24,560 bases of DNA. It comes from a virus. Every line of letters starts with the position of its first letter. Position 1 is the first letter of the stretch. The notes beneath the pieces are model-generated. The model had not been told where the DNA came from. It ran no database searches and saw only the letters and a program-made list of their open reading frames with translations. The stretch lies in the IMG/VR virus record IMGVR_UViG_3300037132_000107, positions 1 to 24,560 of that record, one strand, 5' to 3'. The position numbers and the translations under genes are program-made. This document shows, piece by piece, positions 6,237-20,710 of this stretch.

Positions 6237-7226
6237 GTGACACTTCGTGTCCGCGATTGGAACAAGCATTTTGAGACGGCCGCCAGCCGAAAATTGGTGA
6301 AGTTGGACTGGGTGGCGATACCGAACAAGATGGACGGGTTGGGATATACCACCCTCGTAGATCATCCCCGAGGGGCGTCTCATCTCGGGGCCTGGTACGC
6401 CATCGTGGAGATCGCATCCAGGCAGAAAAAGCGCGGTACGCTCCCGGATGGACCCGGCGGGGTCTGTTTGAGCCTTGCCAGGCTGTCTCGGTTGCCGGCC
6501 GCCGAGTTCGAGGAAGCAATTCCGCGATTGCTTGAAATTGGATGGCTTGAACAAGTCGATTCGATTCAAGCAGATACAGAGAATCCGCCAATCATCCGCC
6601 AATCATCCGCCAGTAATCCCCCATCGTCCGCCAGTAATCCCCCATCGTCCGCCACTTCGTTGGGAGACGTTGGCGGATCTGTTATGTTATGTCCTGTAAT
6701 GTCTTGTAGTGTTTCATCATCAAACCTCAAAGAAGAAAAAGTTGTTTTTTTTAAGAAGTTTGATGATGAAAAACCAACACAACAAAAAGCACAAAACAGG
6801 CGATCCCCCGAGGAAGAACTGCGCGCGATCCATGAAGAGAAAACCGGCATCCGAATCTCGCCCGATGTCGAACGTCGCATCTGGGAACTGGTCGAACTGC
6901 GAGACGTGCCGCGCGTTGAATTTATTGAGCGACTTCGTCCGCATGTGCCGAATACCTGGGAGAATCCGGCCGGATTCCTGACATCGTTTGCCAAACGAAT
7001 CAACCAGGTTGTGGGCACGGAAATCACGATTCCAGAGTCTCCTCCGGAGCCGTCAAAGAACCCGAATGGACGTTGCAGCGCATGCAACGGGCTCGGCAAG
7101 GTGGGTGACGAATGGTGTACCTGCCAGACCGGTCGGGACTTCCACGCGCTGGAACTTCGAAGTCTCGGGCGAAAGCAAATGGCATCCGCGCCGGCAGAAC
7201 AGGCACAAGCGAAGGCGCAAGCATGA
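6237..7226 (+). CDS. phage replication initiator (O-like) with internal origin
   Basis: A 329-residue protein from GTG 6237. Residues about 20-108 resemble the winged-helix DNA-binding domain of phage replisome organisers (KLVKLDWVAIPNKMDGLGYT, LGAWYAIVEIASRQKKRGTL, LLEIGWLEQ). A low-complexity Ser/Pro/Asn linker (116-140) is encoded by the iterons, followed by a Lys/Phe-rich stretch encoded by the AT-rich tract. A helical domain (190-260) and a probable zinc site C280, C283, C294, C296 (CSACNGLGKV..CTC) end the protein. By analogy with lambda O, it would bind repeats inside its own gene and recruit the host helicase. A loader or helicase gene is not recognised downstream. Confidence 0.75.
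   Translation: MTLRVRDWNKHFETAASRKLVKLDWVAIPNKMDGLGYTTLVDHPRGASHLGAWYAIVEIASRQKKRGTLPDGPGGVCLSLARLSRLPAAEFEEAIPRLLEIGWLEQVDSIQADTENPPIIRQSSASNPPSSASNPPSSATSLGDVGGSVMLCPVMSCSVSSSNLKEEKVVFFKKFDDEKPTQQKAQNRRSPEEELRAIHEEKTGIRISPDVERRIWELVELRDVPRVEFIERLRPHVPNTWENPAGFLTSFAKRINQVVGTEITIPESPPEPSKNPNGRCSACNGLGKVGDEWCTCQTGRDFHALELRSLGRKQMASAPAEQAQAKAQA
6584..6654 (+). repeat. five helically phased TCCGCCA iterons
   Basis: TCCGCCA begins at 6584, 6595, 6606, 6627 and 6648, spaced 11, 11, 21 and 21 bp, that is one, one, two and two helical turns. The first two units extend to 11-bp identical repeats and the next two to 21-bp identical repeats. They lie in the coding region for the linker of the initiator. 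Such phasing fits cooperative binding by an initiator on one face of DNA. Confidence 0.75.
6681..6798. other. AT-rich tract with inverted repeat; candidate unwinding element
   Basis: Only 30 of the 100 bases from 6681 to 6780 are G or C by hand count, in an otherwise GC-rich genome. The tract contains a perfect 14-bp inverted repeat (6712-6725 TTTCATCATCAAAC, 6758-6771 its complement) around a purine-rich/T8 loop. Placed immediately after the iterons, this matches the lambda-type origin design (iterons then AT-rich region, all inside the initiator gene). Confidence 0.65.
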
Positions 7227-11278: not shown

Positions 11279-11453
11279 GCTAATTGTGCCTGACAAAGTG
11301 CAATTTAACGTGCTGATGGACTCCGAGACGGCTAAACTCGCGCGACTGGCCGCCATCGGCGAGAACATGCGCTTGGCGGACTGGTTGGACGAAGCCATCC
11401 GCAAGCGCGCGGGGCGTCCGATCAAAACTCCGCCGGTCAGGAGTGGCGAATGA
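11277..11453 (+). CDS. small ribbon-helix-helix-like protein
   Basis: A 58-residue protein (from ATG 11277; GTG 11286 or 11265 are alternatives) of RHH pattern: a short strand VQFNVLMD (8-15), helix SETAKLARLAAIGENM, then RLADWLDEAIRKRAG. Such proteins bind DNA as dimers. Because the promoter at 11249 would start the message at about 11286, the in-frame GTG 11286 could be a leaderless start under that promoter while ATG 11277 would serve read-through messages from terL. It could autoregulate the promoter it overlaps (inference). Confidence 0.7.
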   Translation: MLIVPDKVQFNVLMDSETAKLARLAAIGENMRLADWLDEAIRKRAGRPIKTPPVRSGE

Positions 11454-11596
11454 TCCGCCGATTGAAGCGCCGATGGTGCAAGATGCTGCACAGCGCGATC
11501 TACTTTGCCGGTGGCCGCACGTATCAGTGCCGAACCTGCGGAGAGCGGTTCCCGAATCCAGCCGTTCTGTCGCATCGCGCCGGGGTGCGGCCATGA
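11450..11596 (+). CDS. 48-residue zinc-finger-like protein
   Basis: This short frame opens with ATGA over the RHH stop and ends with ATGA over the next start. It has a basic N-terminus (MIRRLKRRW) and a C2H2-like core: C27-x2-C30, GERFPNPAVLSH (H42), lacking an obvious second His. Known context: small zinc-finger proteins are common in phages. The role here is unknown. Confidence 0.65.
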   Translation: MIRRLKRRWCKMLHSAIYFAGGRTYQCRTCGERFPNPAVLSHRAGVRP

Positions 11597-12357
11597 GCGA
11601 GCCGCTTGTCTGCGCCGTCATGCTGGTCAACGGGCGAGCCGAGATGGTGCGCCGGGCGGTCGCGAGCTTCCGAGCGCAGACCTACGCCAACAAATCGCTG
11701 CTGATTCTGGACACCGGCGAGCCGAAGCTCGGCGGCTATTACCGTCCGAACGAAGTCTACTCGATGATGAATGGCACGGGCCTCACCTTCGGCGCACTCC
11801 GCAATTACGCGAACACGCTGGCGCAGTCGGCCGATATCATCGCGCACTTCGACAGCGATGATTGGAGTCACCCGCTGCGCATCGAAGAGCAGGTGGCGTT
11901 CCTGCAATCGAGCGGCGTAGAGGCCGTCGGCTACCGTGAGCTCCTGTTCTGGGACACGCGGACAGTAGCACATGAATGCTCTTACGACGAGCGCGAGGCT
12001 TCGTGCCCGATCTGTGTAGACGAGCAACAGCGTCAACATGAGCAACATGGCGAAGCGTGGATCTACGCGCACCCGCACCCGCAATATATCGTAGATGCTT
12101 CCCGATGCTATTGGCGGCGCGTCTGGGAAGCGCACCCATACCGCGAGGACCGCAAGTACCCCGACCAGGATTGGTGGTTGCACCACTGGCCGCTGTGCGC
12201 GGCCGAATCGGCAATAGCGGGAGCCGAGTCGCGAATAATCTGCGGCATTCACGGCGGTAACACAAGCGAGGCGTACTTAGCTAAGCACATGATCGCGCCG
12301 GGCTGGAAACGTGCGCCGAAGTTCGACAGCTATTGCGCGGAGAGGATGCGGTTATGA
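11593..12357 (+). CDS. family 2-type glycosyltransferase
   Basis: A 254-residue protein with a GT-A fold: CAVMLVNGRAEMVRRAVASF at the N-terminus, the QTYANKSLLILDTG strand, TFGALRNYANTLAQSADIIA, and the nucleotide-sugar motif HFDSDDW (86-91, DSD as the DxD). A Cys-containing insert (CSYDEREASCPIC) precedes the acceptor part with DQDWWLHHWPL. It would transfer a sugar from a nucleotide donor; the acceptor (virion protein or DNA) is unknown. It is the first of three glycosyltransferase-type genes between terL and portal. Confidence 0.85.
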   Translation: MSEPLVCAVMLVNGRAEMVRRAVASFRAQTYANKSLLILDTGEPKLGGYYRPNEVYSMMNGTGLTFGALRNYANTLAQSADIIAHFDSDDWSHPLRIEEQVAFLQSSGVEAVGYRELLFWDTRTVAHECSYDEREASCPICVDEQQRQHEQHGEAWIYAHPHPQYIVDASRCYWRRVWEAHPYREDRKYPDQDWWLHHWPLCAAESAIAGAESRIICGIHGGNTSEAYLAKHMIAPGWKRAPKFDSYCAERMRL

Positions 12358-13079
12358 AAATCCTGGCCATCGTCTGCACGTTTCAGGAGGCGGACATAAT
12401 CGGCTGGACCGTGCGCCACCTCAAGCGGCAGGGCTGCGACGTGCTGGTGATCGACTGTGAGAGCACGGATGAAACCGTGATGGTGGCGCACACGGCCGGC
12501 GCAGAGATCCTCCGCCATCCAGCGCCGCCGGTGTCCTGGCACGAACTCTTGCGCCAGGTGGAAAAGATCGCAGCCGGGGCTGACGCCGACTGGATTATGC
12601 ATTGCGATGCCGACGAACTGCGCTACAGCCGTTACCCTGATGATGTCTTGGCTCAAGCATTCCAGAACGTCCAAGACTCAAGCTTCAACGCCGTCGATTT
12701 TCAGGTGCTCACGTTCCACCCGGTCGACAATGGCTTCGACGGCTCACAAGACCCCGAGCAGTACTTCCGCTATTACAGCGACGACCCGCTCAACCAGCGC
12801 ATCGGCCAGGTGAAAGCATGGCGCAACGTCGGGCCCGTGAGCCTCGCGGCCAGCGGCGGCCACCAGGTGCAGTTTCGCGGCCGACGCATCTGCCCGGTGA
12901 AGTTTCTGTCGAAGCACTACCCGATTCGCTCACAGGCGCACGGCGAGCGCAAGGTATTTGAAGAACGAAAGTGGCTCGATCAAGCGCTGGGGCGCCAGGG
13001 CTGGCACGTGCAATACAACGGCATCGTGCCGGGGCACAGCTTTCTCAAATATCCGAAATGCCTGATGGAGTGGAAATGA
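12354..13079 (+). CDS. family 2-type glycosyltransferase
   Basis: A 241-residue protein of the GT2 superfamily, related to short glycosyltransferases with the start MKILAIVCTFQEADIIGWTV. Key parts are LVIDCESTDET (31-41), DWIMHCDADE (79-88, DAD as DxD), and a C-terminal region with KFLSKHYPIRSQAHGERKVF. Cytoplasmic, no membrane segment. Its start overlaps the previous stop (ATGA). It differs enough from the first gene that it is not a recent duplicate. Confidence 0.85.
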   Translation: MKILAIVCTFQEADIIGWTVRHLKRQGCDVLVIDCESTDETVMVAHTAGAEILRHPAPPVSWHELLRQVEKIAAGADADWIMHCDADELRYSRYPDDVLAQAFQNVQDSSFNAVDFQVLTFHPVDNGFDGSQDPEQYFRYYSDDPLNQRIGQVKAWRNVGPVSLAASGGHQVQFRGRRICPVKFLSKHYPIRSQAHGERKVFEERKWLDQALGRQGWHVQYNGIVPGHSFLKYPKCLMEWK

Positions 13080-13324
13080 GTTACATCGTCGAAAAGAATG
13101 TGCCCCTCCCCGATAAAAAAAGTCAGTCAGGGACGCTGAGTCAGTTGCCGTGGGATCGGATGGAGGTAGGAGATTCCTTTGTGTATGAGCACAATTCCTC
13201 CGGTGGGCTAAGAAAAGCCGCAAAGAATGCAGGAATCGAAATTCTCATTAAAGGAATTAGTGTGATACACACAGTTGGCCATGGGACAAAGTGCGATAAA
13301 TGGCGGATTTGGAGAGTCAAATGA
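13076..13324 (+). CDS. hypothetical protein
   Basis: An 82-residue protein with ATGA overlaps on both sides. Residues 25-40 (PWDRMEVGDSFVYEHN) and the end KCDKWRIWRVK match a pattern seen in small phage proteins, where a surface-exposed VGDSF strand precedes a terminal R-x-W-R-V. Its base composition is less GC-rich than the flanking genes, hinting at separate acquisition. Function unknown. Confidence 0.7.
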   Translation: MSYIVEKNVPLPDKKSQSGTLSQLPWDRMEVGDSFVYEHNSSGGLRKAAKNAGIEILIKGISVIHTVGHGTKCDKWRIWRVK

Positions 13325-13899
13325 TTCTCGACTCCAACTTACCGCCGATCCTGGAGACCGCGCCCTGGATGCTCTCCGACGGCGGCGCGCTCGACGTGGA
13401 CCGCTGCCCGGACTGCTGGGAGCGCCGCGCGCACATCGAGCGCTACACGTGGGCCTGCCGCGTCTGCACTGGCATGCGCGTGCTCGACTTCGGCTGCGGC
13501 GTCGGCTATGGCTCCGAGATGCTGGCGGCGGCGGGAAACAGCGTCACGGCGGTGGATACGTCGGAATTCGCATTGGCTCTAGCCGAGGAATTCCATCCCG
13601 GCCCGATGTATCTGCCTACGATTCCGAGCAAGTATCCATTCGACGCCTGCGTGGCCTTCGAGGTCCTCGAGCACCTGGACGACCCGCAGCACTTCATCGA
13701 CACGGTTCCGGCACGGCACCTGATCGTATCCGTTCCGGTGCGGGTGGAACAGGACAACCCGCATCACAAACAGCACTTCACAAGTTGGCGTATGCGCGCG
13801 ATGTTACTGAGGCGCTTCCTGCCTCGCTCCTGTTGGCAGCAAACGGAGCCGTATCACTGGGACCCGAGCATCGTGATATTCCACATGGAGGAGCGATGA
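13321..13899 (+). CDS. class I SAM-dependent methyltransferase
   Basis: A 192-residue protein with SAM-binding motif I VLDFGCGVGYG (54-64), the acidic residue of motif II in VTAVDTS (D79), and CVAFEVLEHLDDP (110-122) as motif IV. Before it, CPDC (29-32) and CRVC (46-49) form a likely zinc knuckle. This Cys-rich start plus methyltransferase layout is typical of small-molecule or sugar methyltransferases in glycan clusters, so the likely substrate is a sugar placed by the neighbouring glycosyltransferases (inference). ATG 13321 overlaps the preceding stop. Confidence 0.88.
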   Translation: MILDSNLPPILETAPWMLSDGGALDVDRCPDCWERRAHIERYTWACRVCTGMRVLDFGCGVGYGSEMLAAAGNSVTAVDTSEFALALAEEFHPGPMYLPTIPSKYPFDACVAFEVLEHLDDPQHFIDTVPARHLIVSVPVRVEQDNPHHKQHFTSWRMRAMLLRRFLPRSCWQQTEPYHWDPSIVIFHMEER

Positions 13900-14132
13900 C
13901 GGACCGAAGAGTTATAAAGTACCGCAACTTGCCAACGAAATTACCAATCGGATCTACAGCGGTAGTATGGCTGCTGCTGGATCGCTTTCAGGCTCCGGGG
14001 TGGGTATGGGGAGCGGTCGGGGTCATCTGCCTGGCAACCTGGGCGGCCGTCATCTATCAGATTTGGATTGAAGATGGAGTTGATATATTTGCGGAAGGGA
14101 AGGACGACAAGACATCATGGCTTACTCGATAG
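13896..14132 (+). CDS. small membrane protein
   Basis: A 78-residue protein beginning with ATGA over the methyltransferase stop. Residues about 34-57 (PGWVWGAVGVICLATWAAVI) form a clear transmembrane helix; residues 18-30 form a shorter hydrophobic stretch. Basic N-terminus and acidic C-terminus. No family recognised. It overlaps the next gene by 16 bases. Confidence 0.7.
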   Translation: MTDRRVIKYRNLPTKLPIGSTAVVWLLLDRFQAPGWVWGAVGVICLATWAAVIYQIWIEDGVDIFAEGKDDKTSWLTR

Positions 14133-14380
14133 TTATTCCGTCGCGTAACATCGACAACCTTCTGGCCTGCGTGAAGGCCGTGCGCATCGCGGGCGAGGCG
14201 GGGCGCGTCATCGTGCTTTGGGATGATGGCGCAACGATCCAAGACGACGGACACTTTATCCAGTTCAACGGCCGGCTTATCCCAGCAAAGATTACAGGTG
14301 CGGGAGATATCCCGGTATCGGTTGCTGACATTGAGGACGTGGTGGAGGGCAACATTTACGACCATGAGGGAGCGGACTGA
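14117..14380 (+). CDS. truncated glycosyltransferase N-terminus duplicate
   Basis: An 87-residue protein whose first 39 residues match the start of the following gene at 29 positions (both begin MAYS..IPSRNIDNLLACV, then R.AGE..RVIV.WD.G). After that it diverges into an unrelated acidic tail (DGHFIQFNGRLIPAKI, later EDVVEGNIYDHEGAD). Only the first beta-alpha-beta unit of a GT-A fold is present and no DxD, so it is not an active transferase alone. It has GGAAGG upstream of ATG 14117 and ends one base before the next start, so it is likely translated. Confidence 0.75.
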   Translation: MAYSIVIPSRNIDNLLACVKAVRIAGEAGRVIVLWDDGATIQDDGHFIQFNGRLIPAKITGAGDIPVSVADIEDVVEGNIYDHEGAD

Positions 14381-16114
14381 ATGGCTTACTCAGTGATAAT
14401 TCCGTCAAGAAACATCGACAACCTGCTGGCGTGCGTTGGCGCGCTGCGAGCGGCCGGTGAGACTGCCCGCGTGATAGTCGTCTGGGATCACGGGAAGCCC
14501 GCGCCGCCCGGCGTTCAGTGCCGCGCAATCCCGGCGACTGGCGACCAGCATCTCGAAGTTTACGAAGGCGTCTCGCCGTTCTGCTTCGCCCGCAACTGCA
14601 ACATCGGAATCGCTGCGGCCGGAACGGATGACGTGGTGCTGCTGAACGACGATGCGCTACTAGAGTCAGGATCACATTTCGAGGATCTTCGACCGTCAGA
14701 CGGCTACGGCACCGTCGACGCAACGACGAACGTCACCGGCTATCCAGAGCAATGGCGACGGCGATTCGATGCCGCCCAACTATGCCGCGAGGTCCAGCTT
14801 TGCGCCTTCGTGTGCGTCTACATACCGCGGCGCACGCTCGATATTGTGGGTCTGCTCGATGAGCGATTCTGCGGTCCCGGGGTCTACGGCGGAGAGGATG
14901 TCGATTACTGCCTGCGCGTGCAGCAGGCCGGCCTGAAGGTGGGTGTTTCCGACCTGTGTTTCGTCGATCACGCGAGTCTAAAGAGCACGTTTCGCGGCGC
15001 GCATCCGACGAACGGCGCGCCGGGCGACATCCGCGAGTCAAGCCGGATCGGGCGCGAGAAATGGGGCGACAAATGGCCGAGGCTGGGGGGCATAACCGGC
15101 GCGCCGAAGTTGGCACCTCCGAATCGGATAAACGTCTACACGTGCTCAAAGTGCGGCGGCTACACGGTCACAATTGACATTCACGAGGGAGTAACTCCAT
15201 TCATGCTGTGTTGTCGCGCGAGCGGCAGAGAGGGTGACTGCCGCGGCATGGCCGAGAGTTCGCTCTACCCGAGCGGAGAGAAGCCGTCCTGGATACCCGA
15301 TCCGGCGTGGGAGTGGTTCAAGCCCGTTGGGCCTGAATATCGTAAGCTGAATCGAGCAATGCGAGAGCACGTCGATAAGGGCGGTCTGGATATCAGGCCG
15401 AGGCTGAGATGCGCCGATAGGGGAATAATGGCCAATCTGACGCTCGTCTACGTCGCGAAGGATCAAGTCGGGCTCGATGCGTTCGACCTGACGCACATGA
15501 CCGGAGCCGAGGTCATCGGCTGGGCGAACGATGCCGGGCTCGCGCTCTCGCGTATCGGCAACGAGATGCTCGACCGCTGCAAGTCTCTCGTGTTCGGCCT
15601 CTGTCACGCGGACGCGGTCTTCGGCCCCGGCGCGCTCGATGCGTTCGTGGCCGAGGCGATGCGCGGTGCCGTCTGCGGCATCGTGGGCATCGATCTGGCC
15701 GGCCTCTATCGATGCTCGTTTGAGAGCCGTCGAGACTCGTGGTGGCAAGGCGAAGGGGCCGGCCGAGGCTGGGCGCATGAGAACGAGAATGGCTTGGTTC
15801 ACTCAAGGCCACGCTGGCCACCAAGCCGCATACTCACAGGCGGTCCCGGCGAGGTCTCGACGCTCGACGGAATGGCGGTCTTCTTCCGCCGCGACCTGGG
15901 CCTACGATTCGACGAGGAGACCTTCACTGGCTACCACTGCCACGTGGAAGACCTCTGCCTCCAGGCGCACTCTCGCGGCATCCCGGTAACGGTTCCAGCG
16001 GCAGACGCGCACCACCGCAACCATATACAGAGTCAGGCGTTCTTGGCCGACTATCGCCGCTATCGCGCGAAACTCGCGGCGAAATGGGCAGGCACGGAGT
16101 TCAGAACGACATGA
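14381..16114 (+). CDS. three-part glycosyltransferase fusion with zinc ribbon
   Basis: A 577-residue protein in three parts. Residues 1-235 are a GT2 domain (MAYSVIIPSRNIDNLLACVG; VLLNDDA at 87-92 as the acidic motif; PGVYGGEDVDYCLRVQQAGL at 166-185). Residues about 250-340 are a zinc-ribbon segment, YTCSKCGGYTVTIDIHEGVT with C255, C258 and later cysteines 277, 278 and 287, seen elsewhere as a free-standing phage protein. Residues 350-577 form a second, StrF-like glycosyltransferase domain (TLDGMAVFFRRDLGLRFDEE, later YHCHVEDLCLQAHSRGI). ATG 15428 with GGGG upstream, at the start of the third part, could give a shorter product. Confidence 0.82.
   Translation: MAYSVIIPSRNIDNLLACVGALRAAGETARVIVVWDHGKPAPPGVQCRAIPATGDQHLEVYEGVSPFCFARNCNIGIAAAGTDDVVLLNDDALLESGSHFEDLRPSDGYGTVDATTNVTGYPEQWRRRFDAAQLCREVQLCAFVCVYIPRRTLDIVGLLDERFCGPGVYGGEDVDYCLRVQQAGLKVGVSDLCFVDHASLKSTFRGAHPTNGAPGDIRESSRIGREKWGDKWPRLGGITGAPKLAPPNRINVYTCSKCGGYTVTIDIHEGVTPFMLCCRASGREGDCRGMAESSLYPSGEKPSWIPDPAWEWFKPVGPEYRKLNRAMREHVDKGGLDIRPRLRCADRGIMANLTLVYVAKDQVGLDAFDLTHMTGAEVIGWANDAGLALSRIGNEMLDRCKSLVFGLCHADAVFGPGALDAFVAEAMRGAVCGIVGIDLAGLYRCSFESRRDSWWQGEGAGRGWAHENENGLVHSRPRWPPSRILTGGPGEVSTLDGMAVFFRRDLGLRFDEETFTGYHCHVEDLCLQAHSRGIPVTVPAADAHHRNHIQSQAFLADYRRYRAKLAAKWAGTEFRTT
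15802..15823 (+). repeat. 22-bp direct repeat, copy in the fusion glycosyltransferase gene
   Basis: The 22 bases beginning CTCAAGGCCACGCTGG recur exactly at 17432-17453 in the portal gene. They are read in different frames (SRPRWPP here, LKATLATT there), so shared protein sequence does not explain the match. The core is palindromic (GGCCA-cgc-TGGCC). Confidence 0.6.
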
Positions 16115-19462: not shown

Positions 19463-19521
19463 AAATAGGGGATTTTCCCTATAGTTTCGTGCGCGAAAAT
19501 GCTGTACTCTGAGAATGTAAG
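19463..19521 (+). promoter_or_regulatory. second copy of the left-operon promoter/operator
   Basis: The same 18-bp palindrome (19465-19482), AGTTTCGTGCGCG and GTACTCT-GAGAATGTA occur in the same order and spacing as at 712-769. TACTCT is at 19505-19510 with TAGTTT 17 bp upstream. The half-palindrome here reads TTTCGTGCGCGAAAA. The core is conserved while flanking bases differ, as expected for selected binding sites. It opens the accessory block of 19552 onward. Confidence 0.65.
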
Positions 19522-19551: not shown

Positions 19552-19821
19552 ATGAAATACTACGATCCGAACACTGAACGGTATGAAACCATCACAACTA
19601 ACGGGCTGGCGCACAGTCAGGCGGGCTGGACTGGAGCCGTGGAATACGGCGTTCTCTACTATCTCCCGCGCGGCAAGTTCCTGAGCGCGGTGAAACACCA
19701 GGACAGGGGCGACCTCGCCACGGATCTCCGCATCCACGCTCACCGCCCGAAGATGGTGCGTGATATCTATGTCGGTGGAGAGCCAATCCAACGTAGTGAG
19801 AATGGAGTCCCAAAACTGTAG
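19552..19821 (+). CDS. hypothetical protein behind the shared control element
   Basis: An 89-residue protein with a strong CAGGAGAA site before ATG 19552. Beta-rich composition (MKYYDPNTERYETITTNGLA, GAVEYGVLYYLPRGKF). No family recognised. Its promoter region matches that of the gene at 807, so both are probably regulated together. Confidence 0.72.
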   Translation: MKYYDPNTERYETITTNGLAHSQAGWTGAVEYGVLYYLPRGKFLSAVKHQDRGDLATDLRIHAHRPKMVRDIYVGGEPIQRSENGVPKL

Positions 19822-19960: not shown

Positions 19961-20710
19961 ATGGCAATCTCGATCTTGAATCGCTACACAAAGGCAGTGC
20001 TCTACACGAGCGCTACTACAGAGGATATCGTTACAGCGGTCATTGAGGCTATCAAGAGCGGGGCGAACCTCATCGGGGCGGACCTCAGCAGGACGAACCT
20101 CAGCAGGGCGAACCTCAGCGGGGCGAACCTCATCGGGGCGGACCTCAGCAGGACGAACCTCAGCAGGGCGAACCTCATCGGGGCGAACCTCATCGGGGCG
20201 AACCTCATCGGGGCGAACCTCAGCAGGGCGAACCTCAGCAGGGCGAACCTCATCGGGGCGAACCTCATCGGGGCGAACCTCATCGGGGCGAACCTCAGCA
20301 GGGCGAACCTCAGCGAGGCGGACCTCATCGGGGCGAACCTCAGCGAGGCGGACCTCAGCGAGGCGGACCTCAGCGGGGCGAAGGGCCTGCTACCGAACGG
20401 CCTCGTGCCACTCCAGATACTCGCCACGCGGGACGTCATCGTCGTACGTACGTCGGGATTTATCACCATCGGCTGCGAGCATCATGATATTGCATGGTGG
20501 CGCGAGAACTGCCAGAAACTCGGCGAGCGTGAGCGCTATAACCCCCAGCAGATCGTCGAATACCGGGCGCACATCAACTACTGCGCCCAATGGATGAAGA
20601 CGTACGGCGTGGACCAAGTCTCGCGGTGCGAGGCCTGCTCCGGAACTGGATTCACCGTCAATTCCGGCGGTGGCAAAGACCCGTGCCCGTGCACGGGAGA
20701 ATTCGCATAA
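19961..20710 (+). CDS. pentapeptide-repeat protein with zinc-motif tail
   Basis: A 249-residue protein. Residues 1-34 are a helical cap, 35-139 are 21 consecutive A(N/D)L(S/I)x pentapeptides, which fold as a right-handed square beta-helix of about five coils, and 140-220 form a C-terminal domain (VRTSGFITIGCEHHDIAWWR) that accompanies such repeats in other phage proteins. The last 25 residues carry a DnaJ-type CEACSGTG..CPC motif. Pentapeptide proteins can mimic DNA and bind gyrase or other DNA-binding enzymes; a role against host defence is possible but unproven. Confidence 0.85.
   Translation: MAISILNRYTKAVLYTSATTEDIVTAVIEAIKSGANLIGADLSRTNLSRANLSGANLIGADLSRTNLSRANLIGANLIGANLIGANLSRANLSRANLIGANLIGANLIGANLSRANLSEADLIGANLSEADLSEADLSGAKGLLPNGLVPLQILATRDVIVVRTSGFITIGCEHHDIAWWRENCQKLGERERYNPQQIVEYRAHINYCAQWMKTYGVDQVSRCEACSGTGFTVNSGGGKDPCPCTGEFA
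20063..20377 (+). repeat. 21 tandem 15-bp units coding for pentapeptides
   Basis: Units of the form GCGAACCTCATCGGG and close variants run without a break for 315 bp. Positions 20057-20117 are repeated exactly 60 bp later, and a block of three ANLIG plus ANLSR units is repeated further on. Near-identity at the DNA level, not just in protein, points to recent slippage or unequal exchange. Confidence 0.9.

Follow-up and report, generated by a model that had tools for sequence, protein, structure and literature searches.

A probable phage replication origin within its own initiator gene: phased iterons followed by a five-nucleotide array

Does the gene at positions 6237–7226 of this viral sequence contain the origin of the phage that carries it, and which DNA elements would define such an origin? 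A sequence-only reading had placed a lambda-like replication origin here, inside an initiator gene. The window (the whole stretch of DNA analysed, a virus record of 24,560 bases from IMG/VR, possibly a fragment) has the neighbouring genes of a tailed phage, namely RecT, Gp157/Gam-like, RusA, C5 methyltransferase, ParB-like, terminase, and portal. In this possibly fragmentary record, no DnaC-like (PF01695) or DnaB-type (PF03796) gene is found. The features of the locus, in window coordinates, are as follows.

6237–7226, + strand: replication initiator gene with a GTG start, 329 aa (from the ORF, the family matches of its relatives, and a structure model)
6584–6654, + strand: iteron ladder, five TCCGCCA and two TCCCCCA, in steps of 11, 11, 11, 10, 11, and 10 bp
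6671–6677, − strand: inverted iteron copy, TGGCGGA on the + strand (sequence inspection)
6680–6714, − strand: 5-nt-periodic array, (TGTNN)7 on the + strand, equal to (NNACA)7 on the − strand
6681–6796, no strand: A+T-rich tract, candidate DNA unwinding element, 28–30% G+C per 100 nt
6712–6771, no strand: perfect 14-bp inverted repeat, arms 6712–6725 and 6758–6771, 32-nt loop
6777–6798, + strand: short second ACA series, ACA at 6777, 6782, 6791, and 6796 (read from the sequence)

The initiator gene and the elements in its linker-coding part

The protein is modeled with a winged-helix-like N domain (residues 1–110, pLDDT 93–98 over most of its length), a disordered linker (~116–184), a helical C domain (191–259, moderate confidence), and a Cys-rich C terminus. 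The iterons, the tract, and the inverted repeat all fall within the linker-coding part of the ORF (residues ~116–184), where the sequence-only reading had located them. Searched by itself, the protein has no match above the cut-off in Pfam, PHROG, or NCBIfam (the Pfam match to FAM217, E 0.011, is below the cut-off of that family), and the Pfam search reveals no AAA+ domain. A sequence search of solved structures returned nothing significant, and Foldseek gave no match of the model to the PDB at E below 1; its weak matches are to viral replication proteins and replisome organizers. Weak matches to winged-helix folds include the N domains of plasmid RepA proteins (4pql, 4pta, and 5kbj, Z about 5). 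The best VIA-align Z score, 6.3, was set aside as evidence of kinship, since the winged-helix arrangement is common. No annotated phage was found by tblastn with either the whole protein or the N domain.

On the + strand, TCCGCCA starts at 6584, 6595, 6606, 6627, and 6648, and the five copies described earlier at spacings of 11, 11, 21, and 21 bp are thus present. With 10.5 bp per turn, their offsets are 0, 1.05, 2.1, 4.1, and 6.1 turns, in agreement with the proposed location on one helical face. Both 21-bp gaps are occupied by TCCCCCA half-matches (at 6617 and 6638), which had been overlooked, as had the inverted copy at 6671–6677. The occurrence of five TCCGCCA copies in 71 nt is above the chance level, as no 7-mer exceeds three copies per 75 nt in 200 first-order random windows. 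The only denser 7-mer cluster, of six copies, is found in the same window and, from a self-comparison, is probably the pentapeptide-repeat gene near position 20000. This gene (19961–20710) has strong tandem repeats at the DNA level, with an offset of 75 bp and 85–92% identity.

A G+C content of 30% over 100 bases, as reported for the tract, is confirmed at 6681–6780, and the 100-mer with the lowest G+C of the whole window (28%) is located at 6697–6796. The two arms of the 14-bp inverted repeat match exactly, and no other perfect inverted repeat of at least 11 bp with a loop below 60 occurs in the window. As a single strand the 14-bp repeat folds well (z −3.5 for DNA and −4.4 for RNA), and among the relatives compared it is confined to the near-identical group of the window. 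The cumulative GC skew climbs almost steadily with no turning point at the origin or elsewhere, a profile that is uninformative at the scale of a 24.6-kb fragment.

With 21/30, the 5-nt periodicity of the array at 6680–6714 exceeds that of every 30-mer elsewhere in the window (19/30 at most), and 100 shuffles gave 0 matches. The + strand ACA series mirrors, by eye, this left array across the inverted repeat.

A divergent initiator family with phased iterons

A near-identical gene, with 0–3 substitutions, is present in 11 phages from other samples. The 21-bp unit occurs in these phages in one, two, or three copies, and thus the number of iterons shifts while the remainder is nearly fixed. No relative was obtained in a first scan of genome contigs; a degenerate DNA pattern of the W-V-P-x-P-N motif of the N domain recovered ~50 distinct relatives and later ~65. 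The PHROG matches of these relatives are to replication initiation protein, replisome organizer, O-like, and DnaD-like loader families. The replisome organiser family PF09681 is weakly matched by 6/50 relatives (best E 1.5e-4), and the O-like phrog_678 and phrog_345 by 3/50 and 1/50, respectively, while the window protein matches neither PF09681 nor any PHROG. Compared with annotated phages, one relative (L077) reached 381 records, and tblastn with another (L065) gave nothing. A DnaB-type helicase gene is found in 8/26 family records, and an IstB/DnaC-like match in 3/26, two of them above the family cut-off. The reading of the gene as an initiator is thus supported by independent routes, through the PHROG and PF09681 matches of the relatives and through the helicase and loader genes, and on these sequence matches the window gene is a member of a divergent family of phage replication initiators. 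Two different members of the family, separated by ~5 kb, are found on one contig (L044), and repeats and an array of its own accompany each of them.

The spacings of 7-mer direct repeats were counted in 64 loci over the zone from the N domain to the array, and each locus also supplied the control zones from which the expected values were taken. A spacing of 11 bp is observed in 18 loci (0.3 expected), of 21 bp in 32 (1.0 expected), and of 22 bp in 10 (0.5 expected); spacings of 33 and 42 bp are found in 10 and 11 loci, respectively. The favoured values are multiples of the helical repeat, and those of 11 and 22 bp break the codon frame. Across the relatives, the comparison that had been suggested for homologous initiator genes reveals iterons that keep their helical phase while both the iteron sequence and the encoded linker vary. 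The feature expected of an iteron origin, helically phased direct repeats conserved together with the initiator, is thus observed.

The iteron sequences differ by lineage (TCCCGCA/TGCGGGA dyads, TGGCGGA, GAACGTC, GGTAG, and others). Their 7-mers correlate with the identity of the N domain (Mantel rho 0.375, 0/300 permutations), whereas no such correlation is seen for an upstream control (rho 0.002). This pattern is consistent with an N domain that recognizes the iterons, with a contribution from common descent. In some loci (L031, L029, L044, L047, and L153), CG-alternating runs (CGCGCGCG) are found between the iterons and the array.

The five-nucleotide array

Immediately past the iterons, most relatives contain a stretch with a period of 5 nt, GAATGGAATGGAAGGGAA or ACAGGACAGGACA, that is (GAANN)n or (ACANN)n. 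In 50/65 loci, the linker-coding zone holds the 30-mer with the strongest 5-nt periodicity of the entire locus (mostly 4–15 kb scanned, and with two near-identical relatives of the window included in the count). The enrichment is not circular, because the relatives were gathered by a protein motif. A strong array is present in 51/63 loci, including the window: 40 are GAANN in the sense orientation, 8 ACANN sense, 2 GAANN antisense, and 1, that of the window, ACANN antisense. In the 12/63 loci that lack a strong one, the array is either not obligatory or more degenerate. In three relatives (L102, L106, and L082) the reading frame ends before the array, which is thus located past the stop codon. 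The retention of the array where it is noncoding or encodes another peptide points to selection on the DNA and not on the protein or mRNA. Many relatives have an array that is not rich in A+T, and the maximum A+T content per 60 nt of the gene is often just 52–63%; the conserved downstream element is the 5-nt array and not A+T-richness as such. As in origins of the DnaA-trio/RctB kind, a short tandem motif is found in register beside the putative double-strand sites of the initiator.

The same association is seen from the side of the array. Viral contigs were scanned for bare (ACANN)7 or (GAANN)8, at least 120 stretches each, with no protein query. Among the matches listed, there are 212 distinct sites, and in 136 of them the longest overlapping ORF is on the same strand. 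The array is located 300–500 nt from the ORF start in 88/127 distinct array-containing ORFs, and phrog_1408 (replication initiation) alone is matched by 43/127; both figures refer to the matches listed and, like those of the hand-picked set below, describe samples without matched control ORFs. Ten array ORFs picked by hand comprise seven with replication-initiation or DnaD-like loader matches, one methyltransferase, and two with nothing. Bare arrays among the matches listed thus land mostly on initiator genes. In the annotated phage r1t, ORF11 contains the single best array of the 33-kb genome, and Javan18 has an NNNTA version. No array is found at the known origins of P22, TP901-1, and Sfi21, and a whole-genome comparison gives no distinctive 5-nt array for lambda, P22, or TP901-1. 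Judged within 2 kb, the lambda tract had resembled a 5-nt array; it was dropped, as its score of 17/30 ties with five other places in the genome.

The pattern might also arise if the repeats simply encoded a low-complexity linker, with the DNA periodicity arising secondarily from coding or from slipped-strand duplication. The 21-bp unit corresponds to seven codons and varies in copy number between near-identical phages, as would follow from slippage, and the linker is predicted to be disordered. However, the frame-shifting spacings of 11 and 22 bp dominate over neighbouring ones, the period of the array is 5 nt and not 15 nt, and arrays are located past a stop codon in three relatives and on the opposite strand, where they encode a different peptide, in three. 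The frame-shifting spacings and the arrays outside the gene already contradict a linker by-product, which we consider very improbable. A regulatory role, in which the iterons and the array act as an operator or RNA element of the initiator gene and not as an origin, has hardly better prospects. Iterons near initiator genes often take part in autoregulation, and a strong RNA fold is computed for the inverted repeat (z −4.4), but the site is in the middle of the gene, the array follows the stop codon in the same three relatives, the antisense arrays of three lineages speak against an mRNA element, and the inverted repeat is restricted to the near-identical group.

A more serious alternative accepts the origin and concerns only how the array is read: as double-stranded DNA (through half-turn spacing, wrapping, or a nucleoid protein), or simply as a segment that eases melting. 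Five base pairs are half a helical turn, and the tract of the window is very A+T-rich. In contrast, the arrays of the family often are not (52–63% at most per 60 nt), which makes melting alone insufficient, the motif is strand-asymmetric and mostly found on one strand, and the short tandem motifs of known unwinding elements are bound as ssDNA (PMC10316083). We give this alternative an appreciable chance, somewhat on the unlikely side. By analogy, the array may be bound as a single strand, with a double-strand or melting role as the other possibility.

A proposed mode of action and comparison with known origins

Judged from these sequence comparisons, the locus is very probably a phage replication origin within its own initiator gene, in which iterons are followed by a 5-nt array that would grip one strand. 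The proposal of an origin inside the initiator gene is well supported by the replication PHROGs of the relatives, the phased iterons, and the DnaB-type gene in 8/26 records. In the mechanism we propose, the winged-helix N domain would bind the phased iterons as dsDNA, and the assembled complex would strain and open the adjoining tract. The initiator, or a partner loaded with it, would then hold one opened strand through the repeated motif of the lineage, (ACANN)n or (GAANN)n, as the analogy with other origins suggests, and the replicative helicase would be loaded at the strand so held. In the window, the − strand array and its short + strand echo past the inverted repeat could, more speculatively, allow both strands to be engaged.

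An origin inside the initiator gene is already known for lambda and P22, and that of r1t is also located inside its initiator gene. Of the proposed likeness to lambda, the order of parts is retained, and the iteron type and the downstream array differ. The lambda ori (in gene O), lambdoid origins, and P22 gene 18 have in common with the window the order of N-domain code, iterons, and A+T-rich tract within the initiator gene. However, lambda iterons, as in lambdoid origins generally, are imperfect inverted repeats (dyads) of 18–19 bp (PMC7466680 and the annotation of the lambda record), whereas the window has direct repeats of 7 bp that follow one another in 10/11-bp steps. By this iteron type the origin of the window does not belong with the lambdoid ones. 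Lambda has no clear 5-nt array despite the shared layout, and in P22 the best 5-nt stretch of gene 18 falls outside the ori. By itself, the window protein has no detectable sequence relation to lambda O, a few of its relatives match O-like PHROGs, and a DnaC-like or DnaB-type gene was not found in the window, which may be a fragment. The lambda-type O proteins bind the ssDNA of the AT-rich tract, and the minimal fragment for unwinding comprises two iterons and this tract (PMC7466680).

The replisome organizers of Gram-positive phages (r1t ORF11, Streptococcus Javan phages; PF09681/Phg_2220_C) are matched by relatives of the window protein, and none of these domains is recognized in the window protein itself. 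As in the window family, phased repeats (GGAACC) are followed by a 5-nt array in r1t ORF11; the array unit of these organizers is AGAWN or NNNTA, in contrast to ACANN in the window. Among bacterial and plasmid initiators, DnaA, RctB, and TrfA recognize the unwinding element, once it is opened, as ssDNA through the short tandem motifs in it (PMC10797057, PMC11711613, PMC10316083, PMC4081077). The DnaA-trio of oriC, the ATCA repeats for RctB in Vibrio ori2, and the GGTT repeats of RK2 resemble the window in that a short tandem motif adjoins double-strand initiator sites. The window differs from them in its 5-nt unit and in its small phage initiator with a winged-helix-like N domain, for which ssDNA binding is suggested by analogy.

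More broadly, tailed-phage origins might commonly follow one rule, in which a 5-nt ssDNA element, (GAANN)n or (ACANN)n, stands beside iterons in the initiator gene and acts as the phage equivalent of the DnaA-trio, selecting the strand to be held and revealing origins where no protein is annotated. We regard this rule as tentative, with a chance slightly short of even. No description of a 5-nt array in phage origins was found in the papers searched, which were mainly open-access, and priority is not established. The array beside phased iterons is a DNA signature that finds initiator genes with no need for protein similarity, and it supplies a large number of predicted phage origins that can be put to the test. 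If the array is bound as ssDNA in a strand-specific manner, the "ssDUE recruitment" known for DnaA, RctB, and TrfA would come to include small phage initiators of the winged-helix type and a unit of new length, and the question would arise of which protein reads DNA five nucleotides at a time.

Two other regions of the window show features of their own. The terminase–portal interval (11443–16114) contains a block of glycosyltransferase-like (by inspection only) and methyltransferase-like ORFs, most of which have no PHROG match. The near-palindrome ATAGGGGATTTTCCCTAT is present in three copies (671–688, 714–731, and 19465–19482), two of them upstream of a + strand ORF at 807 and one upstream of the ORF at 19552. 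The segments 712–768 and 19463–19519 have 57 bp in common at 89%, and the element is possibly a phage operator or promoter.
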